Source: Camellia lanceoleosa (lineage: Eukaryota; Streptophyta; Magnoliopsida; Ericales; Theaceae). From it: 64,000 nucleotides of DNA. The notes under the pieces are model-generated. The model was not told the DNA's origin and searched no databases. It was given only the letters and a program-made list of their open reading frames with translations. Positions 5,228 to 48,236 of this stretch are shown here, piece by piece; positions within the stretch are counted from its first letter, which is position 1; each line of letters begins with the position of its first letter. The position numbers and the translations under genes were made by a program. The stretch lies in the NCBI GenBank assembly GCA_025200525.1, contig CM045763.1, positions 91,667,944-91,731,943 of the forward strand. The letters are read 5' to 3'.

Positions 5228-6590
5228 TAGTCTATTTGGATGCTATAATCTCATTGTCATTGATTCCTGTCATCTTAGCATTATTAGACTCATATAAACA
5301 CTTCTCATGCTGCTTGTAAGATTTCGTTCTTCTTTGTTCATAGCTCATTCTGAATGCACATGCTCATTGACTTTATGATCTCATTCTGTACACATCCTTG
5401 AGATAAACTGTTGCAGGGATTTTTGCACAAGTGATCAAGGTTCTTTATGGACCACTAATAGTGTCTCTTATATATTTTCAGAGAAATTGACCTATACTGG
5501 CATATCATGGGTGATGTTGAGTCTCTTGACCATTTACCATCGTTTTTCACTTTCACGGTTCCTCTCTCAGTTCATTGAAGTCAGGGAATTAGGAAAAGGC
5601 CACCTTAGAGGCACCAACCAGGCCATCCTTATTGATTTCATACTTCTCTGGTTTGGTCTCCATACTCTTAAGCGTGCATGCCACCAGTGAGTGCCCACAA
5701 GAAAGAAAAGTCAAAAATCAAAAGAAAAAAAAAAAAAAAAACTCATTGATTGAAGGGGAGCCTCCGCGTTTACTCAACAAATACCCCTTGATTCCTAGTG
5801 ATTTGACTTTTATCAATGATGTTTAGTTACTCTTGCCAGAGGTCCAGCCATTCGATCACCACGAGGATTAACTCTAGCTCCGTGGCCTCTCGAGGATTGC
5901 ACACACACACTTTCTTTATGTGAGCTCTCATGTTTGTCTTTGTGTTGCACATTCCCATATAGCTTATGCTCATTGATCAATATTTATCTGATTTACTCAT
6001 GATATTGTGCTTCATATTGTCAAATTATGAGTTAGCAGGCTTCATGGTTTGTGGATTATCCTATAGTAGAGTCACATTCTTGCTTTTGTGCTCACTTCCT
6101 CTTGTTTCAGGTCCCACTTGATAGTGCAAGTTGGTTTTAATAGCTCAGAAAAGGTACATTTTTGCCTTTGTTGTTTTCTTCCCCGCTCGAGCAACAAATT
6201 TAGCACTCAAGCGTATATTCCACTCATCCAGCACTTTTGTAGTAGTAACCAACTTCTAAGAGATTGTTTTTTGCACTCAAGCGCCTGAATCTCAGCTTGA
6301 ACGAAGCCATGCGCATGAGTTCTCACGCTCGGGCGCCTAAATTCTTTCTCTAGGGAACTGCAATGCTTTAAAAACCCAGCCTTTGTCTTTTCAGTTCATT
6401 CTTCCCCAAATTCTATCTCCCCTCTCCTAGAGCTCCTTTGGCGATCCTCTTCTTCCAAGCTTAAGCTTTGTTTTGGTTTGTTCATGACTGTCATTCCCTT
6501 TTTTCCAGTGCTCTTTCGTCTTCTCAGTCACGTCCTCCTCTATACATAAGAAGTTAACTGCCTCTTGCCCTACTTATAACACGAACCGGT
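5228..6590 (+). other. Non-coding stretch between pol and env-like gene
   Basis: No RNase H homology is seen, so a deletion or replacement at the pol end is likely. The region is T-rich, has a poly-A run near 5728-5745 and a splice-acceptor-like TTGTTTCAG at about 6103-6111. The CTCGAG-pair module at 6186-6342 lies within it. I see no other gene. Confidence 0.5.
6186..6374 (+). promoter_or_regulatory. CTCGAG-pair module with TATA-like box ahead of the env-like gene
   Basis: Motif pairs spaced 20 bp start to start occur at 6186/6206 (CTCGAG/CTCAAG) and 6276/6296 (CTCAAG and the degenerate CTTGAA). A further CTCGGG is at 6328. A TTTAAAAA box follows at 6367-6374, about 35 bp further on. The same arrangement is found in the element's own LTR. 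Read as an internal promoter for the env-like gene this is an inference; the motif spacing is directly visible. Confidence 0.45.
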
Positions 6591-6599
6591 TTCCATCTG

Positions 6600-7723
6600 C
6601 CAAAAAAGCCAATTCTTTTAGAGAGTCTTACTCAACTAGGATTGTCCATCTTGAGCACAATGTCTAGCCAAACACCTTTGAGTCCATGCCCATTCGACCA
6701 TTGTTTGATCCTTTAGGAGGAGATTTGGTCCTTTCTTTCTCCGACCGTCAAAACCTTGACTGGGTTCGGGAATTTTATTGTAATATTGAGGGGATTGACA
6801 ATATTGGCCCTACTTTCAAGACCTAGGTCAGGTCTAAGTCCATCACCATTACCCCTGAACTTATTCGTGAGTTATTAGGCATTGGCCAAGTCTTTCCGTG
6901 TCACTATCCTTTCCCTGTCCAACCCACCTATGATTTCAACGAGGTGGCCATTGTATTGTATGGTACGCCCTGTTCTTGGATCCAGGGCACCTTGATCAAA
7001 CAGCATGAGCTTCTTCCCCAATTCAGTTTGCTAAATCTCATTGTCTGTGCCAACATCATTGTCACCACTCATCGCTCCAAAATCAATCAAGAACAAGGCT
7101 TTGTTCTCTTTTGCATTACTCACCACTGTTCTATCAATCTTGCCACCCTCATTATTCAAAAAATGGTAGCTGTTTTTGAGAGAAGCAACTTAGGTCTTCC
7201 TTACGGTTGCCTTATTAACCATCTTCTCACCAAATTTGAGGTTCCTTCTTTTGACGAGGATGAATTTGCCTTTCTTACCTGCCCATTCACCAAAAAGACC
7301 GTCTCCCAGAGTCAGTCTCATGTCAAGGGGGGTTCTTCTGGGGTGGGTGTTTCTGGTACAGGTGGTGATCCTCTAGCCGATGAGGCAGAGTATGACGCTG
7401 CTACTGCAGGTGAGGCTGCAGGTGAGGGGGAGCAGCTTCCTCTAGCTCGTTCTCTCAGAGGCCAACTGCATCAGTTTGAGCAGGCCATGGTTTCCCGTTT
7501 TGATCACTTGGAGGGCCAGATGGATATCTTTGATGCTCGGCTTACTGATCTTGAGACCACCACCGATGCCAGGCTCTCTGCTTTGGAGGTCTCTTCCAGC
7601 CACATTAAGGAGTCTGTTGCTCAATCTTCCCACCATATTGCTCAGATCTTGACTATGCTTCAACTACAGCAGCCTTTGCCGCCGCTGGCTCAGTGGTACT
7701 TGTTTCTCTTTCTCCTTGGATAG
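6600..7723 (+). pseudogene. env-like / plant-transposon-domain accessory protein of the Sirevirus element
   Basis: The frame open at 6944-7723 (259 residues) extends upstream to about 6600 through in-frame stops, one of them near 6823. Upstream residues include SFSDRQNLDW and ITPELIRELLGIG, resembling the 'putative plant transposon protein' domain (Transposase_32 type) that is common in Sirevirus third ORFs. The C-terminal part has a Gly/Ala/Glu-rich linker, then a helical, heptad-like segment (LEGQMDIFDARLTDLETT). I see no convincing signal peptide, and the C-terminal LFLFLLG is short for a membrane anchor. The env-like label follows convention in SIRE elements. Function is unknown and membrane fusion activity is not demonstrated here. 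Confidence 0.65.
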
Positions 7724-8176
7724 TGTTTTGAACAGTGTATTTTCCTCTGCACAGCTTCTTTTCTACTGTTTTTCGGTTGTTTTTCTTCTGTGGTTTTTTT
7801 TTTTTAATTTTATTTTATGTGCCTATCTTTCAGACAAAAAAAAGGGAGTATTGTGGGATGGGAATGTACATGCATATTGGGATATGTTGGATTTTTTGGC
7901 ATAGATAGATTTGCTTATACATATGTGGATATGGTGTTTATTCCTCTCTATTGGTCTTCGTTATCTTATTTCATTCCACAATTTTGGTTGATTTGATATT
8001 TTGATATTTTCCACATGTGGCTTGTTCAAAAGGGTTCGAAGTGTACTTCAATCAAATCGGCTTGTGTGATTTTTGTAGTTGGTGTTTTGTGTTTGGTCAG
8101 GGTTTTTGTTTATGTTACTGTGTCTAGTCCGTTTGTTTTGTTAGGAAAAATTGTTAGAAAGTTTTGTCTGGAAATT
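7724..8176 (+). other. 3' untranslated interior of the Sirevirus element
   Basis: This T-rich stretch has a run of T at about 7794-7806 and no homology to known domains. A short open frame at 8015-8197 overlaps the LTR start and shows no recognisable features, so it is treated as chance. Confidence 0.5.
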
Positions 8177-8191
8177 GGCAAAGGGGGAGAT
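8177..8191 (+). promoter_or_regulatory. Polypurine tract
   Basis: GGCAAAGGGGGAGAT lies immediately before the 3' LTR start TGTTAG. A purine-rich AAAGGGGGAG tract at this spot is the second-strand primer in Sireviruses and confirms plus orientation. Confidence 0.9.
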
Positions 8192-9098
8192 TGTTAGGTC
8201 CATACTTGTTGCCAATTCCGTGAACAAGCTTAGCTTAATTGAGTTCTAATTTTTCCTCTATTTTTGGTCTTCCTGCTCGAGTGGAAAAAGTTGCGCTCAA
8301 GTAGAGTTTCCACATTTCCAATACTTTGGTTCATCTGCACAAATACTGTGAGGTGTGGTTTTACGCTCGAGCGTAAGTTCCTACGCTCGAGTGTGAATCC
8401 CAGTTTGGAACACGCATTTTAGCATCTCTGCTCGAGCGTCCATTCCTGCACTCGAGCGGACATCGCAGTTTCTGATGCTATAAAACTACAGTTTGCTCCA
8501 AACTTAGGGTACAGCTTTCAGATCTTCTTTGAGGGTTTTAGGGTTTTCATCTGGGGCTATTTTGCAAGTTTTCTTTGATGTTTGATTGAGGATTATACTC
8601 ATGGTTTGACAAGCATACATCAAAGAATTGTTTGATTATTCAACTACAAGAGTGTTCTTCTTTGGTGGAATCCGAAGATTGAAGAGTAAAGTATTCAAAG
8701 GAGTTTGATGCTATGCGCAGTCGTTGATTCGACAATGGATGTTGTGGATTCAACATCAATCTGATCAATTCCGAGACAAAGGTTTCGGTGAAAGCTATAC
8801 AGATTGTTGAAGACAAATTGACAAAGTTTTGGGTAATTTGTTTTGGTAAAATTTGTATTCTTTCTTCCTTTCATAGTGAATTGATTAGTGGCGTTTCGCC
8901 TATGATTTTTTAATCACAATTGGAGGTGCTCCAATTGTGATTTTTTCACATAAAAATCATATGTGTCAATTTATTATTTTAGAAGCGACAATCTAAATTA
9001 ATTTCGTATGTGTTAGATGATTTAGATTGTTAGTTTTAAATCATTTTGGAATTGGTACAATTAATGTTGATCTAATCACAAATCATTTAGGTTTTTCA
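8192..9098 (+). repeat. 3' LTR of the Sirevirus element (907 bp)
   Basis: It starts TGTTAG and ends TTTTTCA. Its last 334 bp match positions 1-334. It contains three 20-bp-spaced CTCGAG pairs, a TATA box and the transcript start region. Confidence 0.92.
8276..8485 (+). promoter_or_regulatory. LTR promoter: three CTCGAG pairs plus TATA box
   Basis: Pairs start at 8276/8296 (CTCGAG/CTCAAG), 8366/8386 (CTCGAG/CTCGAG) and 8431/8451 (CTCGAG/CTCGAG), each exactly 20 bp apart. The second and third pairs share a TTCCT in the spacer. TATAAAA follows at 8479-8485, about 23 bp after the last motif. The position fits a U3 enhancer and core promoter. Confidence 0.65.
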
Positions 9099-9103
9099 GT
9101 AAC

Positions 9104-9512
9104 CTTCATTCAGACAAATACCAATGACAACAAAACAAATGCTATCAAAACTAACAATAATAACAAAATTATTAACTTGTTTGATGGCTGGAAGCTCTCT
9201 ATAATCCAGGTAAATGCACTGCAGCTGGAAGCTCCTGATTTGCAAATGTTGAAGCCGATGGGTGTTATTCTAATTAATGATAGGAATAAAAATTAGAATT
9301 TAGGAATAATTATTGAAAAATGTTTACACAAATATAGAGATAGAATAAGAAAAAGACCATAGATTGTGATGGAGGGTACTTATTGAATCGTCGCCTCGAA
9401 ATCGCTTTAAGTGCTTCAGTCGTCAAAATCAATCACTCGTAGATCAAGCTACAGTCTCAATTGTTGCTTCACAATTGCCACAAACCCATGGTGAAGACTG
9501 TGACAGTTGAGA
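9104..9512. other. Flanking DNA between two LTR elements
   Basis: It holds an open stretch to 9296 that begins inside the upstream LTR, includes FDGWKLSIIQVNALQLEAP and has a donor-like CAG/GTAAAT near 9210. I recognise no protein. It continues at 15502 once the element at 9518-15496 is removed. Confidence 0.3.
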
Positions 9513-9517
9513 CTTTA

Positions 9518-10987
9518 TGTCATAACCCGCTCCCCAGTAACTAAAGTTACCTCCGGCCAATTCTTAAACAAATAAATAAATGCGAGCGAAAATAATATTT
9601 AAGTGAGGGTACCAAAATAATCATTAAAGTTTCTATTTTTATTACAAAATTTATTGACCAAAAAGGCCGATATTCACATATAAAAATATCAAGTGTTGTG
9701 TGTGTCTATTTCGCAGCTTCACATCTAAGACTTTCCAAAGACTATTTCTGAATTGCATTATTTCCTGAAATTTGGTAAACAGCTATAAGCACATGGCAGA
9801 GTGAGAAATATTATACCAAGAGTATAAGGGATACAAAATAACCATGAATAGTTATGTAACTAAAATATTTAAGATAACTTAGTCTAAACAAATAATCATT
9901 TAAGTAGCAAAACTGAGATTATGTAAATAAATAACCATAACCATAACCATAACCACGGTATTGAACAAAATAGAACAGAGGTCATAAGAGTGACAGTCAG
10001 AACGGAGGTACAGATTCAATAGGTGACTCGTGCGGATTATAGAGGTGGCTCCCACAATAGTGTAGCACTTATCTCCATATAGTATTTTACTTCGTACAGA
10101 ACAGAGGTCAACAGATCCATGACAACAGAGGGTCACAAAGAGACCAACAGAAGCCAATGGTTATTTAAGTCCCCAAGGCGTGGGACTCCCGTGGTGGTAT
10201 TTATAAAACATAATTGTTTATAAGGTTATAGTCAAATATTCTTTAAAAGTTAAACAAACATATCCGTGGGTTTCATTTTAACAAATAGGGTTTAAAAAAT
10301 AATCCACATAACTGAAATATTAATATAATTTATAATACTTTATAAAACATAACTTGTATAAAAACAAATATGGTAAGTCAAAACATACGAAAAATATATC
10401 ATAGTGACTCAAGATATAATATAACTCACCTTAACTTTAATACTTCACTCTTTCTTTCCACTATCAAAGACCTTTTTGACTTCCATTATTTTTTCTTTAT
10501 TTACCTTCCCTTTTCTTTCTCTCTTTCTTTCCTTCCCTCCTTTCTTTCTTTCTTTCTTTTCCTTTCTTTCCTTCCGCCCTGATCAGCTCCTCTCTATTTA
10601 TAGGGAGGTGAGAGCATTACGTGGCCCGTGCGAATCTTCTCCAGATTCGATAATAAATTCCATAGATTCATTTTTATCCTTAATAAATATTTAAGATAAT
10701 TACATATTTTGACCTAATTTTTAATATAACTATATAAATAAATTAATTCCTAATTAAATTACATTTTATCGAATACCAATAGAAAATTAATTATTTATTT
10801 TACTACCACATTCATTATTATTATTATTATTTATTTATTTATACTTTGACCCCTAAATTTTTTTACTAATTATATTATTTTATAAAATTACACATAATAA
10901 TACAAAATCAATCATATATTTTCTTAACTGTGATTAAATAATATTAGTATAAATTTTACAGAATAATTAAAAATCTGAGTTGTTACA
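9518..10987 (-). repeat. 3' LTR of the minus-strand Gypsy-type element
   Basis: It matches 11697-11877 plus 14177-15496 along its length. It contains an ACCATA-type short tandem repeat near 9938-9956 and a pyrimidine-rich CTTTCTTT tract at about 10500-10575, which is purine-rich in element sense. Both are repeated in the other LTR. Confidence 0.9.
10595..10602 (-). promoter_or_regulatory. TATA box in LTR
   Basis: CTATAAATAG is read on the minus strand and is conserved at the same offset in the other LTR (15095-15102). The purine-rich leader lies just downstream in element orientation, as expected for an LTR core promoter. Confidence 0.6.
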
Positions 10988-11006
10988 ATCTTCCTTCCTT
11001 TTAAAA
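10988..11006 (-). promoter_or_regulatory. Polypurine tract of the minus-strand element
   Basis: Minus strand TTTTAAAAGGAAGGAAGAT runs directly into the LTR start TGTAACAACTC. It is preceded by GACGAAATTT, a context often seen before Gypsy PPTs. Confidence 0.8.
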
Positions 11007-11683
11007 TTTCGTCCTCGAAATTTGTCATAAGTGTAAGTTATCCACTGCGCACTTTGATAAATATATATTAGATGATTAATCTGATAGAAAATATTACCTA
11101 AAAAAAAAAACTTTACCAAAAACAATTCACTATCTAGTTGTCAAAAATTGGTTTAGGCAAAAATGAGAAATAATGGGTGACTTAAAAAACTTTTCACTCG
11201 TTTTGTTTACGATAAAAATAAATAAAAAAAATAAAATGAGAACACAATGACAGAATTATGTGCAAGAGTTGAAAAAAAATTTCAGATGAACTTTTCATTG
11301 ATGGAAAATAGTTTCAAAATTAATATCTTTATAAGTTGAACCCATTTTTAAAAGTCAAATTAAATTATTTTTTTTAATACTAAACTGAAAATTATATATA
11401 TTTAATTATATTATAATTTTGGTGGGTACTTGAGCCCGATATCCTTTATTTCTTTTCCTTCTTTTGCTATAACAAATATAAATTATATCTATTATCCTTC
11501 ACAAATTATGTACACAAAAAAAAAATTAACATATATATATATATATAAAATTATAATATAATTAAATCGATTAATAAAATATAATATTTAGGTACTAATT
11601 ACCTACTACCCTACTTCTTAAATGTGCATGTGTCCTATGCTCCAATGATGATTTATTTTTATTTTTTTTTTTATAAATCATTA
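11007..11683 (-). other. Interior of the minus-strand element, no coding sequence
   Basis: About 680 bp of AT-rich DNA includes a TA dinucleotide run near 11531-11548 and no open frame of note. An interior this small under 1.5 kb LTRs means the element lost or never had gag-pol. Confidence 0.7.
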
Positions 11684-11694
11684 CTCTGATACCA
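11684..11694 (-). promoter_or_regulatory. Primer-binding site (initiator tRNA-Met type)
   Basis: Minus strand TGGTATCAGAG lies two bases after the LTR end at 11697. It fixes the minus orientation of the element. Confidence 0.9.
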
Positions 11695-11877
11695 TTTGTC
11701 ACAACCCGCTCCCCGTACCCAAGGGTTAAGCATCGTGATGGCCAGTAACTGAGGTTACCTCTGGCCAATTCTTAAACAAATTAATAAACGCGAGCGGAAA
11801 TAATATTTAAGTGAGGGTACCAAAATAATCATTGGAGCTTCTATTTTTATTACAAAATTTATTGACAAAAAACGTTG

Positions 11878-14176
11878 TGTCACGACCCAAACCCGCCCCT
11901 GTAGGTTCGGCACCATAACCGGCCAGTAATCCGAGGATTACCTATGGCCTCTGAACATATTAACAAATAGGAAGGGGGCTGCGGAAGAAAATATACAAAA
12001 TAACAAGGTCCAATGAGTTGTGATGACGTATATGGGACAGGGAAATCCAAAACTTATTTATATACATAAACATGCTAGTCAAATACACCAAATATGTACA
12101 AAGTATTTACAAAATGTAAGCCCAAGATCTGATGTTACAAAATAGACACACAGACTAGCATGAAGTGCAAAAATAGCCATGGCGTTAGGCTTTAAGCGGA
12201 ATCTCCTCGGGAGGCGCAACGGGTGGCTGAACAAAACAAAATAGAAGGCCATCAATTCTGGCCCGGGTCCTGTGCCGCCTCACCTACATATATATAGTAA
12301 ACTGTGAGCGAAAGCCCAGCGAATAACAAACAGAGTAAAAGGATTTCAATGAATGAGTCCATACAGATTTCAGAAATCAATTCATATTGTATCAAAATCA
12401 TGCTTGATCAGATCGAAATCATAATTCAGCTTTTTCAAATTCATACTTGATCAGATCATATATAGGTAGAAATCACAAGTCATGGTTACATTTACGTGAT
12501 ACATCCATTAGCATAACTAAACAGAATGCGCAATGCGTAAGATTGTGAATAACCTCCTTAGCTCCGGCGAAGGAACCTCCGGATCCGGGTAACAAGACAG
12601 CTAAGCCCCTATGGCGGGCCTCCGGCATGGGCATTAGTGCACAAACAGAATGCATAAGGCGTAACACAACAGAATGTATGAAGCGTAAAGTTCCACGAAG
12701 GAACCTCCGATACCGGGTCATGACTATAAATCTCACATGGTACTAAGGATGTCATGGATACATGTCAGAAATTAGACAATCATTCATTGTACATAACATA
12801 TCATTTCAGAAAACATATCGCATTTTGTCACACAGAAAATAAGTACAGTTGAACATATCTTTACTAAGTTATTACTCACAGTGGGCGTTGAAACAGACAA
12901 GCGGAGCCAAAAGGTCAAACAGAGTGCGGCACGTGACCTACATAACACATAACAGACATATACATGAAACACACGTTCTAGCTTATACAAAACTTTTGTC
13001 ATTGGTTCTAAGTGTGTTTCTACCCTTGAATTCCCCTTATAGAGTCTTAAACATGGCCTAGGAATGCCTATGATGGAATAAGGATGCAAAAATGCATTTC
13101 ACGCTCGAGCGTCACTTTGCTCGTTCGAGCGGACGGCATGATCGCAGAGTGTTCGCTCGAGCGTGGAGTTCCTCGCTCAAGCGTGGGTCCAAAATCTGAA
13201 AATTCCAGATTGAACTCCGTTGCTCAAATCCAACTTTTAACCATTCAAAACTCAACCTCTTGGGCTCAATTTCTGGAAAAAGATTTCAAACTAATAGTAC
13301 AATAAGTTTCAAAAACCAATTTGTAAAATCAATGCCCATGGGTGAGACAATTTGATCACAATTTCAATAAATCACCAAGAACAAAGTTTAAACAAACATG
13401 CATGAGTCCAAATTGGATTTCAAAGCTCTAAAACATGATCCAAAGCACAGTTAACCTTAGAATTTTGCTGAATTCAAGGACCTTAGTAAAAATATGGCCA
13501 TGCATGTGAAGATTTGATACCAAACAACTTCAAATAGCATAATATGAGCATGCATGCATAAATTAAGCTTAAATTCAACATGTTAAACCCCTTCCTAACT
13601 TTAATCACCAAATTAGCCAAGAACATGCAAGAAGAACTCAAATTCTAGTTCTAGAAAATGAAATCTCTACCTTAAGTTCTCAATTTCAAGTATGTGAGCT
13701 CAATCTTGCAATTCTCCTACAATTTCTTCTAGCAATCCTTGTTGAAACCAAGCTCCCCTCACACTCTCTCACACTAGCCGTTTGGTCTCACAAGGTGATG
13801 AAAACAATGTTCTAAGACTAAGTTCCATGGTTGTCTTAGATAGTGGGCTTCAATGGCACTATTGTAAATAATTGAACTCATAATTTAATGTTATTTAATC
13901 TAATTTAATCGCACCGAATCGAATTTTAATAGAACCCACCATAAAATCACATAAAATCTAACTAGTCTAAAACACTAATCAATTTCGGAATTGGGTGCCG
14001 ATAAGGCTTCCAATTCACAATTTAAAGTTTAAAACACAAACAAATATTTCGACACCGAACAGATAGAAACACATGATTCATACAATACACATGCAAATTA
14101 ATTTCAGATTCTCTCTTAATTACTATTAGGCATAATTAAGTACCAATTAACGTTACTCAGGGTCAGGGTTATTACA
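11878..14176 (-). mobile_element. Nested Gypsy-type solo LTR (about 2.3 kb)
   Basis: It begins TGTCACGACCC and ends GGGTTATTACA in plus coordinates. It is homologous over its length to 42573-45008, sharing the ends, GTGAGCGAAAGCCCAGCGAATAA-like text, the CTCGAG pairs and an AATTTAATC-rich tail. No primer site, PPT or coding domain is present, so a solo LTR is the simplest reading. Minus orientation is inferred from the GGGCTTTCGCTCAC motif, typical of Gypsy LTRs, on the minus strand. The flanks CGTTG and TGCTG match poorly, so the target duplication is eroded or boundaries have shifted. Confidence 0.75.
13033..13181 (-). promoter_or_regulatory. CTCGAG-pair module and TATA-like box in the nested solo LTR
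   Basis: Pairs start at 13104/13124 (CTCGAG/TTCGAG) and 13156/13176 (CTCGAG/CTCAAG), both 20 bp apart. On the minus strand a CTATAAGG box lies at about 13033-13044, some 60 bp downstream of the motifs in element orientation. Confidence 0.5.
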
Positions 14177-15501
14177 TGCTGATATTTACATATAAAAATA
14201 TCATAAAGTATTGTGTGTGTCTATTCCGCAACCCTGCATCTAAGACTTTCCAAAGGCTATTTCTGAATTGCACTGTTTCCTGAAAATTGGTAAACAGCTA
14301 TAAGCACATGGCAGATTGAGAAATATTATACCAAGAGTATAAGGGACACAAAATAACTATGGATAGTTATGTAACTAAAATATTTAAGATAATTTAGTCT
14401 GAATAAATAATCATTTAAGTAGCAAAACTGAGATTATGTAAATAAATAACCATAACCATAACCATAACCATGGTGCCGAATAGAACAGAACAGAGGTCAC
14501 AAGAATAACAGTCAGAATAGAGGTACGGATTCAATAGGTGGCTCGTACGGAGTATAGTGGTGGTTCCCACAATAATGTAGCACTTATCTCTGCACAGAAC
14601 AGAGGTCAATAGATCTATGACAATATAAGGTCACAAAAAGACCAAACAGAAGCCAATGGTTATTTAAGTCCCCCAAGGCGTGGCACTCCCGTGGTGGTAT
14701 TTACAAAACATAATTGTTTATAAGGTTATAGTCAAATACTCTTTAAAAGTTAAACAAAAATATCCATTGGTTTCATTTTAACAAATAGGGTTCAGAAAAT
14801 AATCCACGTAACTGAAATATTAATATAATTTATAATACTTTATAAAACATAACTTGTATAAAAACAAATATGGTAAGCCAAAACATACGTAAAATATATC
14901 ATGGTGACTCAAGATATAATATAGCTCACCTTAACTTTAATACCTCACTCTTTCTTTACACTATCAAAGACCTTTTTGACTTCCATTATTTTTTCCTTCT
15001 TTTCCTTCCCTTTTCTTTCTCTCTTTCTTTCCTTCTCTCCTTTCTTTCTTTCTTTGTTTTCCTTTCTTTTCTTCCGCCCTGATCAGCTCCTCCATATTTA
15101 TAGGGAGGTGAGAGCATTACGTGGCCCGTGCAAATCTTCTCCAGATTCGATAATAAATTTCATATATTCATTTTTATCCTTAATAAATATTTAAGATAAT
15201 TACATTTTGACCTAATTTTTTAATATAACTATATAAATAAATTAATTCCTAATTAAATTAAATTTTATCGTATACCAATAGAAAATTAATTATTTATTTT
15301 ACTACCACATTCATTATTATTATTATTATTTATCTATTATTATTTATTTATACTTTGACCCCCAAATTTTTTTACGAATTATATTATTTTATAAAATTAC
15401 ACATAATAATACAAAATCAATCATATATTTTATTAACTGTGATTAAATAATATTAGTATAAATTTTACAGAATAATTAAAAATCTGAGTTGTTGCACTTT
15501 A

Positions 15502-16409
15502 GAATGGGATATGATGGCTACATCGAGGAGAAAGTTGAAGTGGTCTCAAACCCATGGTGAGGAGGTGAAAACAATGAGGAAGATGAGAGGAAGGAGCTGA
15601 AACAACAACATTAAACCTACAATGGAAGCCAGGCACCCTCTAAGCAACAAATATTGCAAAAAATAAAAAACAAAACTAATGTTTAGCATCAAACCAAACA
15701 AAACTAAAGTATAGTTCAAATCTATCACAATTTTAGCAACGAAACTAACTAATTAATCAACAAAACTAATCAAAGTTTACAGCAACTTTCCCCAATATTT
15801 CAACAAAACTAACTAATTAAAATATCTGTTAGAGATCTCATTGAACAAAACACCGAATACCCACAACCTTAGTCTGCTCCATTGCCAACGTCGAAGTCGT
15901 TGCACTGTATGGCAGAAAACATAATAGTGCTTAAATAGATAGATTAATGGGTTGTTAAAAAAAAAAGGATTAATGGTGACTTTAAAAACTGATTTAATAC
16001 AAATCTAATACAAATCGGATATTAATACAAATCAGCAAGAGGAAATCAAGTAATTAATCAACACAACTAATTGTTTAAGATGGGTTGCTCAAGAAAAATC
16101 AAAGCCCAGATTTCCATTTTCCCCATTGTTTAAGATGGGTTTGCTCAGTTGAACAGTAGTTCTACTGGATTCTTGTATAGATATCAGTCTTATCCTCAAT
16201 TCAAAAACACCCTTGTTCCCTTTTTGCAGTGACTCCATTCGGTCTTTGTCAATATTGAAGGGGGTTTGGGCTGCCACTGTTGATGGCGATTGGTATGGCG
16301 GAAAGAGGGAGAGAGGAAAAGAGAAGATGAAGAGAGTAATAGGGGGTTTGGGGTTCGGTCGTCGGCAAGGGTTGGGCTCCAACAGGAAAACACGGGAATG
16401 GGCTCCGAT

Positions 16410-16410
<1 letters not shown>
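15502..16410. other. Flanking DNA with possible minus-strand gene 5' end
   Basis: It continues the flank interrupted at 9517. A minus-strand open frame of 97 residues (16382-16089) follows a CT-rich tract, an arrangement like a plant 5' UTR plus first exon. Its sequence is low in recognisable features and no domain is seen. The frame may be chance. Confidence 0.25.
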
Positions 16411-16455
<45 letters not shown>

Positions 16456-16544
16456 TGTGTGTGTGTGTGTGTGTATGTGTGTGTGTGTGTGTTTTCAACA
16501 TTTGAAATCAGAAAAGAGATGAGAGGAGTGTGGGTGAGAGAGTG

Positions 16545-16595
<51 letters not shown>
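16411..16595. repeat. (GA)n/(GT)n compound microsatellites
   Basis: A GA run at about 16412-16452 passes directly into a GT run to about 16492, with one TATG interruption. A second GT run spans about 16547-16586 and ends in GAGAGAGA. Open frames through this region are repeat translations, not genes. Confidence 0.95.
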
Positions 16596-26859: not shown

Positions 26860-27417
26860 CAGATCTATGTCGACGGATCATCCAATAACCGAGGTTCGGG
26901 AGCAGGGGTAGTACTTATCTCACCAAAAGGATTTATTTGGGAGCAGGCTCTTAGGCTCGGCAAGAAGGCTTCTAACAATGAAGCGAAATACGATGCACTG
27001 TTGTCTGGCTTACACAGTGTCAAATACTTCAGTGAAGAGCAACTTCTTGTGTTTAGCAACTCCCAATTGGTGGTAAACCAGCTTTCTGGGGTCTATGAAG
27101 CACGAGACAAACGAATGGCTATGTATGCAGGCAAGGCCAAGGATCTACTTAAAAAATTTCGATCCATACGAGTGGAATGGATCAGTTGGGACAAAAACAG
27201 CCATGCTGATGCTCTGGCCTTCCTTGGCTCATCAGTAAATACCAAAGAGGCTAGAAAAGTTTGGGTTGAGTTCATGCCAGAACCAAGTATTACATCTCCA
27301 GTCCTCTGCAGCAACCTAGAGCCAAGCTGGATGGATCCGATACTTGCTTTTCTAAAAGCTGGCACTCTCCCCGAAGATAAAAAGGAAGCCAACAAAATCC
27401 AACATAGGTTAGCTTAG
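26860..27417 (+). pseudogene. Second (cellular-type) RNase H domain of the Tat-type element
   Basis: Motifs are IYVDGSSNNRGSGAG, SNNEAKYDALLSGL and HADALAFLG. In the third motif, FSNSQLVVNQ, Asn replaces the catalytic Asp usually found in SDSQLV, so activity is probably lost. An extra archaeal/plant-type RNase H between the RT-linked RNase H and integrase is diagnostic for the Tat/Ogre group. The frame runs to a stop at 27415. Confidence 0.88.
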
Positions 27418-33720: not shown

Positions 33721-34589
33721 TGAGAGGGTAATTTGTGCTGAACAAATGGGCCAACCTAAATTCCATGTGGGCCTTTAACCGTGCAACCAAGTTAACATGA
33801 AATGGGTGTTGAGGCAAGCTGAATGAGCTTGGACTATGGGCAGAGATAAGTCCACACATCGGACATAGACTAGGCAAAGGATCTCTACCGAGCTAAGTAT
33901 GCACAGTGGAGAGTGATCAGGCTAAGATAACGAGGGCAACTCTTGACCGAACTGAGAATCTTAGTCAAGGCGAAGGGCCACGCGAAGTTTGTCCGAGCAA
34001 TGAGTAAACAATGCTTAATCGAGAAGAGCATAGCGGACCGTGCTACTAGAATTCTTCGGGAGCCAACCAACCAGAGCTAGCTTGGACATGAAGCAGCCTG
34101 GGGCTGAATCGGTTGAAATTAGCTCAATTAAAGGTAGCTAGGCAACCATATACTATGTAGTCCAATTGGAGTGCGAGGAGGAAAACCTGTCAATAGTATG
34201 CGTCAATACCATCTGGCTATTTTGTCAATGTTGTTTAGCAATATTAACATATACACGTGTAAGGAATGGAGAGGATAGTATAGCTACACATCCAGCGAAG
34301 GACAACAAAGGTAGTGCGTGCACAATCTAGGGCTGTATGGCCAGCCTAAATAACGAGGCGCAAGCAGACTCTGAGGGAGTAAAGCAACCTTTAGCAATTC
34401 TCTCTCTACAGTGCTCTGTATTCTCTCTTTTTCTCCAAGAAAGCTTACTTGGTCATCGGAGGGATTTTTCGACAAACCACCTGCTGGGTAGCTCACCTTT
34501 GTTTTGTTCGCAGTTAGACCAAGTTCTAGGAGCTAGATAAGCTTGGTAGCAAGGCGTACGGAAGACAATGGATATTTCTTCCCCATACA
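33721..34589 (+). repeat. 5' LTR of the non-autonomous Tat-type element
   Basis: It starts TGAGAGGGTAATTTGTGC, ends CCCATACA, and is colinear with 45311-46178. Confidence 0.93.
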
Positions 34590-34591
34590 AT

Positions 34592-39100: not shown

Positions 39101-39926
39101 AGCCTATTCTAGTTGCATCTTGCATGTGTTGCATTAGCCATCTTAACATGAGCTAGGATCATGCATTGATTACTAACTAGTTTCTGTTTTGGCTTGGAGT
39201 ACTAGGTGAGTTTTTATGCTTTAGCATCCTTGCACGTGTGTGAGTGTTGCCATAATAGCATGACTACCATGAGACTAAGTGCTTATGTGATATAACTGTT
39301 TGAATGCCTGTGGATGGAGGTCAAATTACCTAAATTGGAACAATGCATGAAAACTGTGAGTTTTAAGCCCACCAGATAGTGGCAAAACTGTCTTTTCTAA
39401 AAGCCCACTTGAGGGTGGCAAAACCTGCATTTTAGCCTACTTGCGAGTAGCAAACCATTTTCAAAACAAACATGTAGTGTTTTGTTCCAATTTAGGCGAT
39501 TTGGTCTATACTTGTTTGCTGTGAGCATAACATAGTAATTCTAGGCTAATAACCGGAATAAGAACACATAACGTTTTCAAAATTGGATATCACGGTTAGT
39601 AGAGGCCGATCTTCGGATCGGGCGAGAGGGGATGCTCATAGCTGACCTTCCCCAATCGTACCCAAGTTCCCGAGCCGAGGCAACTTTGGTGATGACGGAC
39701 ACGTGGCCTTTGGCACCGAGTCAGGGTTTCCTAAATTCCCCCATTAAAAAATATTTAGGTGGCGACTCTGTATCTGGCAAAGCAGTTCATGTTTGGCACT
39801 TCTTTTCAAAACCTGTTTTCTCAAACGATTTGCCAGATTTGGACTCTTTGGTTCAAGATTAAGAACCGTGACAACAAAAAGGGGAGTCCGAACAACTGTA
39901 GCGAGGTCCCCCGTGGGCTTGTTACA
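36143..39926 (+). mobile_element. Gypsy-type solo LTR (about 3.8 kb) inside gag
   Basis: It starts TGTAGACACCCC and ends GGGCTTGTTACA, flanked by perfect CTGAC copies (36138-36142 and 39927-39931). No primer site, PPT or coding domain lies inside and no terminal direct repeat of LTR size was seen, so it is a solo LTR of a long-LTR family. Text such as TTTAGGTGGCGACTCTG near 39755 is familiar from plant Gypsy LTRs. A TATAAG box at 36615-36620 gives plus orientation. Open frames inside are short and featureless. Confidence 0.8.
36615..36620 (+). promoter_or_regulatory. TATA box of the 3.8 kb solo LTR
   Basis: CTTCTATAAGAGGAGG is followed about 30 bp later by the likely transcript start region and a leader with GAGAGAAAAC. 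Confidence 0.5.
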
Positions 39927-40105
39927 CTGACCAAGTTGGGGAATGCCTAGAGAGGGTTCAATTAAAGATATCGTTGCACCTTTCATGATGAGAGGGGGCA
40001 CCAAACATAAGATTTCATGGTGCTCAAGCTACACTTGGAAAAGTTGCTGACTTTGGGGCATTTGGATCGTTACATTGATGAAAAGGTCAGGGCTGCTCAT
40101 CAATA

Positions 40106-40470
40106 GAATACCTCGCCAAATGGCCTAGCAATCGAAGGCGTCCTCCCTCAATGAGTGATTGATTGAAGAGATCTGGGGAGTTCAATTTTAGAAGATGTTA
40201 GTAAGAAGGCCGAGAAAAAGAAACATAAAACTCACATAATATAAATGGTCGATCTATTTCCAAAACGTCGAAAACAGCTAATCTGAAGTTTTACTCTTAG
40301 TTCTACTTTTGTAACACTTTCTACTATTGAAGTAATGAAACAAGTAGACTGTTTTCTTGAAAATTATTGTATTTTTGCCTCGCCGAGTAGATTTAGCACA
40401 ATCCAAGGAGCAACTAACGATCATTTTGACGGAAGGATCAGAATTCCTTGTAAAATAGATTTTGCTCGGC
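40106..40470. other. Interior between gag and minisatellite, no pol
   Basis: AT-rich DNA starts about where the protease and RT should begin. No motif of either was found. This is the site of the pol deletion or of the original gene-poor structure. Confidence 0.6.
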
Positions 40471-40479
40471 AAGAGGTTT

Positions 40480-42060
40480 ATTGATGGCTTTGATCAACTT
40501 TGGAATTCCTTGCCGAGCTAATTTTTCTTGTCAAGAAGTCTTGCCAAGTTAATTTTGCTCGCCAAGATGTAAGTTGCTGAGCTGATTTTACTTGCCAACT
40601 TTGAAATTCCATGCCGAGTGGATTTTGCTAGACAAGAGGTTTGTTGATGGTTTTGATCAACTTTGAAATTCCTTACCAAGCTGATTTTGCTCACCAAGAA
40701 ATCTTACCAAGTTGATGTTGCTCACCAACATGTAAGTTGCCGAGCTAATTTTTCTCTCTAACTTTAAAATTCCTTGCCGAGCTGATTTTGCTTGCCAACT
40801 TTGAAGTTCTTTGTCGAGCTGATTTTGCTCGCCAAGAAGTCATGCTGAGTTGATTTTGCTCACTATAATGTAAGTTGCCGAGTTGATTTTACTCGCTAAT
40901 TTTAGAATTCCTTGCTGAGCTGTTTTTGCTCGCCAACTTTAGAATTCCTTGTCGAACTGATTTTGCTTGCCAAATTTAGAATTCCTTGCCGAGCTAATTT
41001 TGCTTTCCAAGAAGCAAGCTGCCGAGCTGACTTTGCCCGCCAACTTTGGAATTCCTTGCTGAGCTGATTTTGATCACCAAGATGTAAGTTACTGAGCTAA
41101 TTTTGCTCACCAACTTTAGAATTCCTTGCCAAGCCAATTTTTTTAGCCAAGAAGCAAGTTGTCGAGCTGATTTTTCCCGCCAACTTTGGAATTCCTTGCC
41201 GAGCTAATTTTGCTCGCCAAGAAGTCTTGCCAAGTTGATTTTGCTCGCCAAGATGTAAGTTGCCGAGTTGATTTTGCTTGTCAAGTTTAGAATTCTTTGC
41301 CGAGCTGATTTTGCTTGCCAAGAAGTTTTGCCAAGATGATTTTGCTCGCCAAGATGTAAGTTGTTGAGTTGATTTTGCTCGGCAACTTTAGAATTCCTTA
41401 CCAAGTTGATTTTGCTAGCTAAGAAGTTTTGCCGAGATGATTTTGTTCACTAAGATGTAAGTTGCCGAGCTAACTTTGCTCGTCAACTTTGAAATTCCTT
41501 ACCAAGCTGATTTTACTTGCCAAGAAGCAAGTTGCCGAGCTGACTTTTCCCACCAACTTTGAAATTCCTTGCCGAGTTGATTTTACTTGCCAAGAAGCAA
41601 GTTGCCGAGTTGATTTTACCCACCAACTTTGAGATTCCTTGCCAAACGAACATTACTTGGCAAGAGGTTTGTTGATGGTTTTGGTCAACTTTGAAATGCC
41701 TTGCCGAGTTGATTTTGCTCGCCAAGAAGTAAGTTACCAAGTTGATTTTGCTCGCCAACTTTGAAATTCTTTGCCAAGTGGATTTTGCTTGGCAAAAGGT
41801 TTGTTAATGGTTTTGATCAACTTTGAAATTCCTTGACAAGTTGATTTTGCTCGCCAAGATGTAAGTTGTCAAACTTATTTTGCTCGCCAACTGTAGAATC
41901 TCTTGCCGAACTGATTTTGCTTGCCAAGACGTTACACTGATTTTGCTCGCCAAAGAAATTGCCAAGTTGACTTTGCTTGCAAAGAAGTTGCCAAGCTAAC
42001 TTTACTTGCCAAGAAATTACTGAGCTGATTTTGCTCGCGAACTTTCGACAAAAAAATGAT
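40480..42060 (+). repeat. Minisatellite of CCGAGCTGATTTTGCTCGCC units (about 1.6 kb)
   Basis: The phrase GCCGAGCTGATTTTGCTCGCCAA recurs with variants, alternating with AACTTTGAAATTCCTT and AAGATGTAAGTT spacers. This makes a higher-order unit of about 70 bp. A longer variant containing GGTTTGTTGATGGTTTTG appears near 40470, 40630, 41660 and 41790. Open frames through it are repeat translations. Confidence 0.9.
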
Positions 42061-42239
42061 GATTTGTTTAGTCAAACAAAATTTTAACCAAGTAGTGGAC
42101 ACGGTCAAGGGGCAATTTATTTATCCTAGGTCACTGCTTTGCCTTTGTAAATTTAAGCTAGGAGCCCAGACTGAAGGGAAAGTTGTAGGGTCGACTTAAT
42201 AACTTGATATTTGCCCATACTACGAGGTCAACATCATGC

Positions 42240-42480
42240 ATCGTTTATCTAGCTGACACTTGCATGGCATTTGCAAGGTCGACATCCAAGCTCTGTTTGC
42301 CTGGTCGACGTCCAAGCACCATTTGCCCGATCTAACTTGTTAAAGGTCCATTTGTAAGGTCCGTTTACATGGTCCATTTGCAAGGTCGCAAGAGTCAAGC
42401 CTAGCAAAGTCCGTTTGTAAAGTCCATTTACAAGGTCGCCAGAGTTAAGCCTAGCAAAGGCGAGCCCATGACATCAAGCG
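42240..42480 (+). repeat. Second, shorter tandem repeat (AAGGTCCRTTTG type)
   Basis: Phrases GTCCATTTGCAAGGTCGC, GTCCGTTTGTAAAGTCC and GAGTCAAGCCTAGCAAAG recur in tandem, following the larger minisatellite. Confidence 0.75.
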
Positions 42481-42572
42481 TCAAGCTAGAGTGGTTTGTG
42501 ACCAAGCATTAACTCATGATTGAGATGGCAATGAAGCAAATCAAATTAATGCCAACCGACTTGAGAGATCAT

Positions 42573-45008
42573 TGTCACGACCCAAACTCACCCCTATGGG
42601 TTTAGCATCATAAGACCCGATGTCCGTGATTACGAAGGCCCGCTTATGATAATGACAGTAATATAGAGTAAAAGGGCTGGCGGAAGCCAAAACAGTAAAT
42701 AAAAGATGTCCAATGAGCTATGACAATCTGGATGCAAAAAGACTTTTTTTTATAAACATGACACATTGATAACCCAAACATATATACAAGCGACATATAC
42801 ACAAACATCCATGTCAAGAACCAAATCCCTAACTATAATTGTATAGTCAAGTCTTAAACATTTATTACAGATCAGAGGCAAAAGGAGGAATCTAAAACAC
42901 CCCAAAACAGCCTTGGCTTTAACACATTCAAAACCTCGAGGTGAGGCACAATGGTTGAGTTGACAAAACAAGAGCTTAACTTGACACTCCTAGCATCGGT
43001 CTGGTGCCTGGACATCTACATATAAATATAGACAGTGAGCTAAAGCCTAGTGAATAACATATGCGTAAAGGGGTTAAGAATGAATGTCTTTTCAGTAATT
43101 AAAACAGTCAATAGCATCAGTAAATCAGTCATTTAAAACCATAGTAGTCATATGTGGTACATCCAATAGCAAAACAGTACAGTAGGTCTTAACAGACCGA
43201 ACAGTCAGTTGATGTCCATCATAACAATAAACAGTAGTAGTTCCAAACATGAGAACCGATAGAGATCTCTGTAACAGTAGCAGTAACAGTAACAGTAGGT
43301 TGCTATAGATGCCATGAGTACAGTTTGCAAATAGGACAAACATTCATTCATTAAACAATCACACTTCAGTAAGTAGTACAGTTGATCATTCAGAAAATAG
43401 TCATAATTGAACATATCTTTACAACATTGTTACTCACAGAGCACTGGGCTATAGACAAGCTAACGAGCGTCCTCGGATGCCAACCCTATAGTTGCAGAAT
43501 GAACACACACTCAGGATTAATAACTTAGCCCCTACTTAAACTTGGTGTGGTTCTATAACATTATCCTCATTAAGATGCCTTAAACATGGCCTAGGAATGC
43601 CTAGGATGGAATGAGGATGCAAAAAAAGCACTTTAAAACACTTTTCAAATTTTTGCTGAAACAGAGGTCTCGCTCAAGCGTGGCATTCTATGCTCGAGCG
43701 AGCTTTCCAAAACAGAGGGGTCGCTCGAGCGTGGACTTCCTCGCTCGAGCGGTCTGTAAAAATGCAAAAAGTGCTGGATGTTGAAAATCTCTGCTCGACG
43801 CTCGCTCGATGTTCGCTCGAGCATGAGACACAGTCCTCGCTCGAGAGTAGGTTCCTTCACTCGAGTGTGCGTCTGCACATGCAGAAAATCTAAGAGCTTG
43901 CAATCTACGCTCGAGCCAGCATTCCTTTACTCGAGCGGAGCTCTAAACAAAAGATGGTCGCTCGAGCGTGGAAGGCAAAATCTAGGTTTTCCAGATTTGC
44001 CTCCAAAGCTCAAACCAAGCATTCAACACTTCAAAACTCAACCTTTTGGGCCCATTTTCTGGAAAACACTTGAAAACTCATACTATAACATGTTTTGAAG
44101 ATCAATTTTGTAAAATCAAGCCCAAATATGAGACAATTGCACACAATTTCAAAGGAACTTTCATGAATCATGTAAAAACATAACATGCATGAGTTCTTAT
44201 GAATTCCAATGCTCTAAAACATAATCAAATGCAAGTTTGAACTCCAAAACATGGTGAATTCATGGACTATAACAAAAACATGAACATGCATGTAGAAATT
44301 CTCATGTAGACAACCTCAAAATGCAAGAATATGTACATGCATGCATGAATTAGCTCACAATTCAACTCTTTAAATTAACTCTTTACTATAAACTCCAAAT
44401 TTTCCATGGACCATGCAAGAAATAACTTAAATACATGAATAAGAGGATGAACTCCCTACCTTAGGTCTTGAATTCAAGTATGGAAGCTCAAATATGCAAA
44501 TTCCCTTCAATTCCCCTAATTCTCCAAGCCAATTTTGATGAACTCAAGTTTTTCTCCTATTCTCTCTCTCTCTCTCTCTCTCGGTTTTGGCCTCAAGAAT
44601 TTGAGCAAAATGATGCAACAAAGTGATAGTGCCAAACTTATGAATAAAGACTAAACAATGGTCTAGAATTAGCCACTTAATAGCAAACATGTAGTTTACT
44701 TGAACTAATGTGATTTAACATTATTTAATCTAATTTAATCATTCCAAATCAAATTTTAATTAAACCTACCATAAAATCACATAAATTCTACCTAGTATAA
44801 AACATCAATCAATTTATGATTTGGTCGCCAATAAAACCTTCAATTCGCAGTTCGAAATTAAAACATGAACAGATTCATTCAGAAATCGAACAGATAGAAA
44901 TGCATTCAAAACAATACACTCCTACAATCAATTCAGGATTTCATTCTAATCAGTTACTTATCATGCTTAACCATAGATTAGCACTAATCAAAGGTGAGGG
45001 TTGTCACA
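42573..45008 (-). mobile_element. Gypsy-type solo LTR (2436 bp), same family as 11878-14176
   Basis: It starts TGTCACGACCC and ends GGGTTGTCACA, with perfect ATCAT duplications (42568-42572 and 45009-45013). It is homologous along its length to the copy at 11878-14176. It contains a CT microsatellite near 44563-44582 and at least four 20-bp-spaced CTCGAG pairs. No internal domain is present. The minus-strand orientation is inferred from the shared Gypsy-like motif. Confidence 0.88.
43560..43966 (-). promoter_or_regulatory. Expanded CTCGAG-pair array in solo LTR
   Basis: Pairs start at 43673/43693, 43724/43744, 43840/43860 and 43910/43930, all 20 bp apart, mostly with TTCC in the spacer. A triplet CTCGA at about 43793, 43804 and 43815 is spaced 11 bp. 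A single motif is at 43961. On the minus strand a TTATAGAA box lies near 43550-43560, downstream in element orientation. Confidence 0.6.
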
Positions 45009-45297
45009 ATCATGTATCAATCAGGCCGAGAATTTGGAGGCATAAAGTAGTCCAACAAAGCTGAAAAGAACGCAAATCGCACCCATGGACGAAACAATCA
45101 ACTGAGCTCAACCATGAGATGACCGAGTAATAACGTCAATTCGGTGATCTAAGTAGAAGGGAAAAGAATCGTAGTCAAACTAAGCCTGCGCCTCGAAGAT
45201 GAGCCATGCTAAGCTGGAACAAGGATGTTACTCTTAACCAGGCCATAAATTTAGCTCGGCAGGATAAGGTAATCTTGATCATGCTAAAACAGACGAA

Positions 45298-45310
45298 ATT
45301 AAGGGGCAAT
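45298..45310 (+). promoter_or_regulatory. Polypurine tract
   Basis: ATTAAGGGGCAAT directly precedes the 3' LTR start TGAGAGGG. Confidence 0.8.
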
Positions 45311-46178
45311 TGAGAGGGTAATTTGTGCTGAACAAATGGGCCGACCTAAATTCCATGTGGGCCTTTGACTGTGTATCCGAGTTAACATGAAATGGGTGTT
45401 AATCCAAGCTGAATGAGCTTGAACTATGGGCCGAGATAAGTCTACACATCGGACATAGATCGGGCAAATGATCTCGACCGAGCTAAGTATGCACAATGGA
45501 AAGTGACTGGGCTATGATGATGAGGGCAACTCTTGACCGAACTAAGAATCTTAGTTAAGGCGAAGGGCCGCACGGAGTTTATCCGAGCAAGGAGTAAACA
45601 ATGCTTAACCGAGAAGAGCATAGTGGACCGTGCTAGTAGAATTCTTCGAGAGCCAACTAGCTAGAGCTAGCTTGGACATGAAGTGGCCTGGGGCTTAACC
45701 GGTTGAAATTAGCTCGGTTGAAGGTAGCTAGGAGACCGTATACTACGTGGCCCAATTGGAGTACGATGAGGAAAACCCGCCAATAGTACGCGTCAATACC
45801 GTCTGGCTATTTTGTCTATGCTATTTGGCAGTATTGACATATACACGCGTAAGAAATGGAGAGGATAGTGCAGCTACGCGTCTAGCGAAAGAAAACAGAA
45901 GTAGTGCACACACAATCTGGGACTGTGTGGCCAACCTAAATAAGGAGGCGCAAGCAGACTCTGAGAAAGTAAAGCAACCTTTAGCAATTCTCTCTCTACA
46001 GTGCTCTATATTATCTCTTCTTTTCCAAGAAAGCTAACTTAGCCATCGGAGAAATTTTTCAGCAAATTATCCACCGAGTAGCTCACCTTTGTTTTATTCG
46101 TAGTTAGACGGAATTATAGGAGCGAGATAAGCTTGGTAGCAAAGCATACGGAAGACAACTGATATTTTATCCCGTACG
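45311..46178 (+). repeat. 3' LTR of the non-autonomous Tat-type element
   Basis: It starts TGAGAGGGTAATTTGTGC, ends CCCGTACG (CA eroded to CG), followed by GTTGG. It is colinear with 33721-34589. Confidence 0.93.
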
Positions 46179-46183
46179 GTTGG

Positions 46184-47933
46184 TTACTTAAGGTGGGTCC
46201 TGCTGCCAAACCTTTTTTGGGTGGCTATTGCAAACAAAATTTGATTGTGACGTGGGTCCTGTAGCCAAAGCTTTTTTGGGGTGGATATTGCAAACAAAAT
46301 TTGATTGTGTAGATCTTTATCCTATCCTAGTATTCCTGTAAATTGTTTGTCAAGTCTATGGCTACAAATCATTTATGCAAATAATATATATGAAAATAGT
46401 CAATGGCTGCAATCCTAATGGACCAAATCTGTGACTTGTTCATTAGTTCTAGTTAAAAGTTAATTTTTTTTTAACATGAATAGAAATCTTGCGAAAGTAA
46501 TTACGTTGGATTGTATTTTTATTTTTATTTTTATTTTTAATAAATTACAGTTTTTAAAAAAAAATTATTTATGAAAATTTTTCTTAAAAATTATTAGAAA
46601 ACACAAAAAAAGTTATTTTTGAGTTTATGATAAAAAAATTTGACACAAATACAAAAAATAAGTGTTTTCGAAAACATGAAAAACAGAAAAATAAAAAATA
46701 AATTGAAACTTTTTTTTTTTTTTTTTGTGAGTAAGCAACTTTCTGTTTCGATTTTTGTTTCTTTTTTTCTTTTTGGATGGATTATCAACTGATCATGTTT
46801 TCCAAGCAAAAATTAAAAAATAAAAATAATCATCACTTTGAATAATTTCAGACTATAATGGAAATTCTATTTATACATAATATTTATTATACAAAAAATT
46901 CTATAAGAATGATGTATTGCTATTATTTTTGTAAATGAACCCATTTCATAGATATTTTGTTTTAAAGTGAAGTCTACATTAAACTACATATTATTCTATA
47001 TTAATTTTCTATGGTGTTTGAGGTTTGCTTTTCTTTTCTTTTTTTGTGATTTTTTTATTAGTTTATTTTCGTTTTTAATAAACTTTAAAAAAAATTAAAA
47101 AGATTAGGCTTCCAGATTTTACTCAAATAAACGAATTGTAAAATTAAAAATCTTCAAAAAAAATTATAAAAAAAAGTGAAAAATAAACCAATAATAGTGG
47201 ACTTTTTAGCTTATGGTTTTTTCATTTTTTTTTAATTTTTCTAAATTTTTTTTTTTATTTTTTAGAATTGTATACATAAGATGGATCGAAAAAAGTAAAA
47301 AACAAAAATTGACATAATTTTGAAAAAAAATCATTAAAGACAAAAAAGAAAAAAAAAATAAAAAAGAAGTTGACTTTGGTGTTGTTTATTTTGAAGGTTT
47401 GAGGGGGTGGGATTAGATTATTAGTCCATCTGGACTAATAGTCCGTAATTTGGTTCAAATTTTTGGCATCGGACTATTAGTCCCACTAGATTAGGTAGTG
47501 AAATGATCATTTTGACCCTCTACTGTTTAATTATGTATTATATTTAGTAAAATTTAATAAAATTTAGGCCACAAACATTACATCCAACCACAAAAAAACC
47601 CAACTATCTTCCCAAACACAAAAAAAAAAATTTTCCAATAATATTCTACAACTAAAAAAACCTACATAAAAACTCACTTCCCAAACACTCACTAAGTTTT
47701 GTTTCTCACCTGGAGTGGTGAGATTTGCTAAGAAATCAAAATTATTCTTTTAATCATTATCCATCCAAAAAAAAGTTGAAAAATCACATTCATTTCTTTT
47801 CATTTAAAACTCCAATTATTTTTTTTCTTTTCTCACCTCTTAATTCAAACGGATCGTAAATTGGCAATCTCGTTTGACAACATTTCCTTCAATTGTAATT
47901 TTATTCGTTCTTTTGTTTCAGTAAGGATATGAG
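46184..47933. other. AT-rich spacer with a 59-bp tandem duplication
   Basis: Two adjacent copies of about 59 bp (46192-46250 and 46251-46310) share GTGGGTCCTG and TTGCAAACAAAATTTGATTG. The rest is AT-rich with many homopolymer runs. At about 47420-47450 a small hairpin (TTAGTCC...GGACTAA) may belong to a worn MITE. No gene is seen. Confidence 0.6.
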
Positions 47934-48028
47934 TGTTAAGATGTAAATCTAACTCGAATTGTGCCTATACAGAAAAGTTTATATTCTTGAGGCTTACATG
48001 TTTGCTACTTCGCGGACTATGTATGGAG

Positions 48029-48236
48029 ATCGAGCGGTCATTTCTGCACTCGAGTGGTGAATAGGAGCATTTAGTATCTCTGTCTACAAACTAAACTTCT
48101 AGAAAAGATGTTTCACTACTCGAGCGGTGAAATATGCGCTCGGGCGATTAACCTATACGTTTTACACCACCTTTACTCACACCGCTCAAGCGGTGAAGTA
48201 TGTGCTCAAGCGGTCTTCGCGATCCTGTTTTCTATA
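48029..48236 (+). promoter_or_regulatory. CTCGAG-pair module in the Sirevirus-like solo LTR
   Basis: Pairs start at 48029/48049 (ATCGAG/CTCGAG), 48119/48139 (CTCGAG/CTCGGG) and 48185/48205 (CTCAAG/CTCAAG), each 20 bp apart. A TCTATAGAG box follows at about 48231, some 20 bp after the last motif. Confidence 0.6.

Follow-up and report, generated by a model that had tools for sequence, protein, structure and literature searches.

Among described systems, the repeated-motif (RM) boxes of Sireviruses come closest to the motif arrays considered here. In a Ty1/copia survey (Bousios et al. 2010, PMC2829016; here and below, statements on cited papers refer to parts of their text), RM boxes of 13 elements were described as palindromic, located upstream of the TATA box of the long terminal repeat (LTR) and upstream of ENV, and associated with CpG islands; no single factor was found that reads them, and an internal ENV promoter was not conclusively identified. 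We analyzed one 64,000-base stretch of Camellia lanceoleosa DNA (contig CM045763.1; "the window", to which all counts refer) in which five arrays of the palindrome CTCGAG, arranged in pairs with box starts 20 bp apart, are carried by three element families: a Sirevirus (in its 3' LTR and, as a further copy, in the linker that joins pol to the 3' LTR), a diverged LTR of Sirevirus-like type, and a family represented by two solo LTRs. Like the RM boxes in the parts of PMC2829016 considered, they are palindromic, high in copy number, placed in the LTR upstream of TATA with a second cluster upstream of ENV, and CpG-rich. Judged from sequence, we read the arrays as Sirevirus-type RM boxes in a host-specific form that would be paired, bound by a factor and responsible for activation of LTR and linker, with the solo-LTR family using the same factor; we assign this reading a probability of roughly 0.6. 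An earlier inspection of the window (the original prediction) had stated that no described element of this form was known. This does not apply to palindromic boxes at these Sirevirus positions, which are already known from the survey cited above; what is added here is the strict 20-bp pairing, a layout kept to 1 bp in two LTRs, a diverged linker copy of the promoter block, and the occurrence of these boxes in another LTR family. Among the open-access literature matches listed, none was found to mention CTCGAG as a core or a strict pairing at 20 bp, and the spacing passages of PMC2829016 describe no fixed pairing; among the matches listed for the box sequence combined with retrotransposon, none was on LTR boxes by title.

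With a box defined as CTCGAG with at most one mismatch, the window contains 210 such hexamers. Sixteen pairs lie at distance 20, compared with a mean of 1.09 (standard deviation 1.13, maximum 7) at the other distances from 6 to 200, which bears out the predicted spacing excess within the window. The runner-up is distance 70 with 7 pairs, a peak to which the array layout contributes. In 100 dinucleotide shuffles, no more than 2 pairs occurred at distance 20 and no more than 4 at any distance, and CTCGAG gave the strongest peak among 64 palindromic hexamers tested, by the score used. All 13 pairs listed in the original prediction were recovered, 12 of them conforming to its set of one-base variants and one including a hexamer absent from that set (ATCGAG at 48029); the 16 pairs are completed by a decayed linker pair (6328/6348) and by two pairs outside the arrays, at 27296 and 58115, that look like chance. 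When the same number of sites was placed randomly in the five arrays, none of 20,000 trials produced a shared distance with at least 14 pairs. The extended 10-bp palindrome CGCTCGAGCG, of which each array holds two to four pairs 20 bp apart, has 6 exact and 14 one-mismatch copies in the window; all of these (20/20) lie inside the five arrays, as do 10 of the 13 copies with two mismatches, compared with 5 of 71 with three. The CpG observed/expected ratio is 0.92–1.53 in the arrays versus 0.57 in the window, and of the 41 bases that depart from the consensus across 30 boxes, 29 represent C>T or G>A changes at CpG positions; variants such as CTCAAG presumably represent mostly CpG-site decay, with methylation presumed. 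Decay of the central CpG was one-sided, with 7 CTCAAG-type changes (6206, 6276, 8296, 13176, 43673, 48185, 48205) versus 1 on the other strand, where symmetry is expected. As to TTCCT, which had been put forward as a frequent spacer component, it is present in 6 of 13 pairs, always on the + strand (in two of the seven pairs of Sirevirus type and in four of the six in solo LTRs), and is missing from all three pairs of the diverged Sirevirus-like LTR and from the single linker pair; the background for TTCC is 0.067 per 14 nt.

Table 1. Coordinates of the box arrays and of the elements that carry them (window positions).
Feature	Positions	Strand	Details and basis
End of Sirevirus 5' LTR, intervening sequence and primer-binding site (PBS)	333..348	+	exact match to 16-mer given in the consulted part of PMC2829016
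Linker array	6186..6353	+	6186/6206, 6276/6296 (second hexamer with two changes), 6328/6348 (decayed); TTTAAA at 6367; pair scan
Stop-to-stop frame in ENV position (pol to 3' LTR)	6827..7723	+	Pfam Transposase_32
Polypurine tract (PPT) AGGGGGAG + AT, followed by TG of 3' LTR	8182..8191 (junction 8182-8193)	+	exact Sirevirus PPT/LTR junction
3' LTR of Sirevirus	8192..9098	+	8765-9098 with 92% identity to 1-334 (5' LTR cut by window start)
LTR array S8	8276..8456	+	8276/8296, 8366/8386, 8431/8451; TATAAAA at 8479; pair scan
Solo LTR L13 (TGTCACGACCC...)	11878..14174	orientation not settled	within older element; target duplication imperfect; LTR comparison
Array G13 in L13	13104..13181	orientation not settled	13104/13124, 13156/13176; pair scan
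Solo LTR L43, family of L13	42573..45008	orientation not settled	ATCAT target-site duplication on both sides; LTR comparison
Array G43 in L43	43673..43966	orientation not settled	43673/43693, 43724/43744, 43840/43860, 43910/43930; extra boxes 43816, 43961; one-mismatch hexamers 43794, 43805; pair scan
Array S48 in diverged Sirevirus-like LTR	48029..48210	+	48029/48049, 48119/48139, 48185/48205; TATAGA at 48233; pair scan
Downstream remainder of S48 LTR	55517..55626	+	79.6% identity to 8870-8978; split off by 48554-55425 insertion

The element spanning positions 1–9098 was identified as a Sirevirus by its Copia gag and pol domains (Pfam: Retrotran_gag_2, gag_pre-integrs, SH3_retrovirus, RVT_2), by the exact 16-bp junction CA/ATTGG/TATCAGAGC between 5' LTR and PBS, and by the exact PPT/LTR junction. 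Its boxes agree with RM boxes in being a palindrome with at least 8 copies per element, clustered in the LTR and ahead of ENV (6 copies in the 3' LTR plus 6 linker positions, some decayed). Two PPT octamers occur in its linker, the terminal one and one within the open reading frame (ORF) at 7425, compared with a chance expectation of 1.1 for the window; Sirevirus linkers carry four on average, mostly after ENV, according to the consulted part of PMC2829016. The LTR array S8 begins 84 bp into the 3' LTR, compared with 200–400 for the boxes in that part of the survey. Its box starts (0/20/90/110/155/175) recur almost unchanged in S48 (0/20/90/110/156/176), and the last box start precedes the TATA box by 28 bp in both; the corresponding values for the linker array are 0/20/90/110/142/162, with several boxes decayed, and 19 bp to a weaker TTTAAA. 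Outside the boxes S8 and S48 have no similarity (z -1.4, 943 of 1000 shuffles scoring as high), and identity is 45/60 in the boxes versus a chance-level 8/30 in the spacers. Within the module 6 of 219 alignment columns are gaps, compared with 9 of 91 in the preceding and 36 of 326 in the following sequence. Because the S8/S48 geometry has thus outlasted the sequence, we consider it the best sign of constraint in the window, and since the boxes lie upstream of TATA at equal offset, a promoter-type module in the Sirevirus LTRs appears well supported by the sequence comparison.

The second Sirevirus cluster, described in the original prediction as lying in an internal leader, in fact lies in the linker that separates pol from the 3' LTR, ahead of the ENV-position frame, which has a Pfam match to Transposase_32 and none to an envelope protein. 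With boxes masked, the linker block aligned to S8 with a score of 131 versus 70.6 for 300 shuffles (standard deviation 9.0; z 6.7), none of 1000 shuffles scoring as high, and the alignment spans the TATA region; the ungapped identity of linker and LTR (33/60) ranks first among all 63,819 placements in the window. By this alignment evidence, the linker carries the LTR promoter block as a second, diverged copy. The masked comparison of S48 with the linker gave z 1.0.

The two solo LTRs had been taken as unrelated, which we reject: L13 and L43 are identical at 1335 of 2087 aligned positions, their arrays are homologous with boxes masked (z 7.8), with more units in G43 than in G13, and both LTRs lack an internal domain and share the ends TGTCACGACC. 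We take the Del/Tekay consensus to be LTR ends TGTNACNNCC...ACA with a 5-bp target duplication, and on such ends L13 and L43 would presumably be of the Del/Tekay type; the family is probably Gypsy. Adjoining the arrays, a 47-bp block (13046–13092 and 43579–43625) is 96% identical between the two LTRs, whose identity elsewhere is about 64%, and CATGCATGCAT, which we assume to be an RY-type motif, is conserved in both LTRs (13524–13570, 44310–44350). A 19-mer of L13/L43 found no match in the genome contig collection, a single pattern match in viral contigs was taken as chance, the 6 and 12 stretches matched by pattern in protein-guided scans included no relative, and no terminal sequence letters for these LTR ends were found among the open-access literature matches listed. 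The proposal of unrelated carriers goes too far, since, besides the kinship of the two solo LTRs, the linker array duplicates that of the Sirevirus LTR. With boxes masked, the six forward comparisons of Sirevirus-type with solo-LTR arrays gave z values of -0.6 to 2.3, and the predicted Copia/Gypsy sharing is supported, at the level of sequence, as sharing with a probably Gypsy LTR family that, apart from the boxes, resembles the Sirevirus little or not at all. The consulted part of PMC2829016 calls RM boxes Sirevirus-specific, whereas here they also occur in a family without Sirevirus features. Sharing across superfamilies has a precedent, since the maize Sirevirus palindrome is also present in Helitrons (PMC10760457, as excerpted). 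The solo LTRs further resemble Del (Gypsy) LTRs with plastic 5' CpG islands (PMC4029996) in that a CpG-rich block of variable length sits in a long LTR, as in L13 versus L43; they differ in that the excerpted text reports no CpG island in eudicot Del and no palindrome pairs, and their own placement in Del is presumptive.

The sharing might alternatively reflect descent, the module having crossed between Sirevirus and solo-LTR family as a DNA segment, by template switching or recombination. S8 (8240–8510) aligned to the reverse strand of G13 (13030–13240), up to a CTATAA in both, with a masked score of 87 that 3 of 1000 shuffles attained (z 3.5); for S8 versus G43 in forward orientation, 27 of 1000 shuffles attained the score. 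These two better scores, however, involve opposite strands, are not seen with the sister LTR (S8 versus reverse G43: z -0.5) and emerged from 12 comparisons, the others remaining near shuffled values (z -0.6 to 1.6 for 5/6 forward and -0.5 to 2.1 for 5/6 reverse comparisons). Comparison of the central 10 nt of the spacers between the two groups gives 3.29 of 10 matching positions, versus 2.62 after permutation (P 0.0017), an excess driven by TTCCT; the evidence is modest because the permutation test counts related pairs as independent, and it is likewise compatible with convergence plus a spacer preference or with capture of one short module. Of the three explanations originally offered, segment exchange is weakly supported, masked comparisons being mostly near shuffled values, and convergence and short-module capture are both compatible with the data. 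As far as the sequence goes, LTR segment exchange is unproven, and we consider such a transfer unlikely.

Several observations weigh against reading the arrays as factor-bound RM boxes. The core is CGCTCGAGCG, unlike the CGG-CCG of most Sirevirus boxes in the consulted part of PMC2829016, where the Tnd-1 box also lacks CGG-CCG and where we judged the Vitis box CGGTCGACCG of Table 3 to be the closest. The pairs within each family may share one ancestral pair, so that 13 pairs do not amount to 13 independent events. The TATA-like box predicted to follow the boxes is present in three of the five arrays, at the distances given above; L13 and L43 contain none on the + strand within 100 bp of the boxes, and the weak - strand sites (68 and 122 bp away in L13, 41 and 121 bp in L43) do not fall at aligned places, the orientation of these LTRs not being settled. 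A TATA box near the L13/L43 boxes was set aside on these grounds. The best TATA-like site aligned in both LTRs is 12289/43021, and if the LTRs are read on the + strand the boxes lie some 650–820 bp downstream of it. Finally, the outer flanks of the pairs can base-pair at 33 of 60 positions versus 26.3 for swapped flanks (P 0.04).

The latter finding bears on the possibility that the boxes act as RNA, with paired palindromes forming hairpins that feed small-RNA silencing, as in maize Sirevirus LTRs, where, in the parts of PMC10760457 and PMC5311732 considered, palindromes are small-RNA hotspots. The arrays resemble those hotspots as palindrome arrays in Sirevirus LTRs, and 12 of 15 pairs fold at z <= -1.4 relative to simple letter shuffles, but folding is inherent to palindromes, the core differs from that of the maize palindromes in these excerpts, and the boxes show no hairpin covariation: of 150 stem pairs, 128 are intact between real partners and 127.4 on average between swapped ones (P 0.45), 2 of 41 changes are compensated, and complementarity of the inner spacer ends is 27 of 60 positions versus 28.9. 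In the pair 48185/48205, CTCAAG occurs twice, which preserves the repeat and weakens the stem. A hairpin function was thus rejected as a candidate by covariation, the boxes giving no support and the outer flanks a weak signal only. Since box partners lack hairpin covariation, protein binding to DNA is favored, and the CpG-transition pattern would fit a protein that binds CpG-rich DNA decaying under methylation; we regard action as RNA as still more improbable than segment transfer. Least probable of all is that the pairs arose as a side effect when segments of fast-evolving U3 regions were duplicated locally, and were inherited without function: array units are duplicated (D1 family) and G43 has more of them than G13, but the S8/S48 layout is kept to 1 bp with spacers at chance level (8/30) and boxes not (45/60).

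Other features of the window are given for completeness. The S48 LTR is interrupted by the 6.9-kb insertion 48554–55425 with 517-bp terminal direct repeats (91%), in which the frame 52612–53130 encodes a Tetraspanin domain and is possibly a captured piece of a host gene. A long array of diverged CTTGCCGAGCTGATTTTGCTCGCCAAG-type repeats (40440–42045) lies between the repeats 33721–34583 and 45311–46173. On the - strand, an unbroken 1065-aa Copia pol frame (56513–59707) is situated between the repeats 55743–56462 and 60507–61231; because these are 95% identical, the element appears to be fairly young.

Returning to the reading of the arrays as paired, factor-bound RM boxes, a host transcription factor would bind each palindrome as a dimer, and a pair of dimers spaced by about two turns of the helix would bind jointly to the same face of the DNA. 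Binding would activate LTR transcription, and that of the linker copy the ORF in ENV position. The solo-LTR family, probably Gypsy and presumably of the Del/Tekay type, may have adopted the same factor independently or by capture of a short module. A more far-reaching version, which we advance only tentatively and consider rather unlikely, is that two LTR superfamilies in one plant converged separately on a shared enhancer grammar of two dimers (CGCTCGAGCG and CGCTCGAGCG at 20 bp) that a single host factor recognizes, and that in the Sirevirus the LTR promoter block was duplicated together with its TATA so as to drive the gene in ENV position from within the element. With its fixed geometry, the two-box unit offers a concrete probe in the search for the factor, and because the alignment of the linker block to the LTR promoter extends through the TATA region, the idea of an internal promoter can be tested directly. 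If the sharing with another LTR family is true, unrelated elements would exploit the same host switch.

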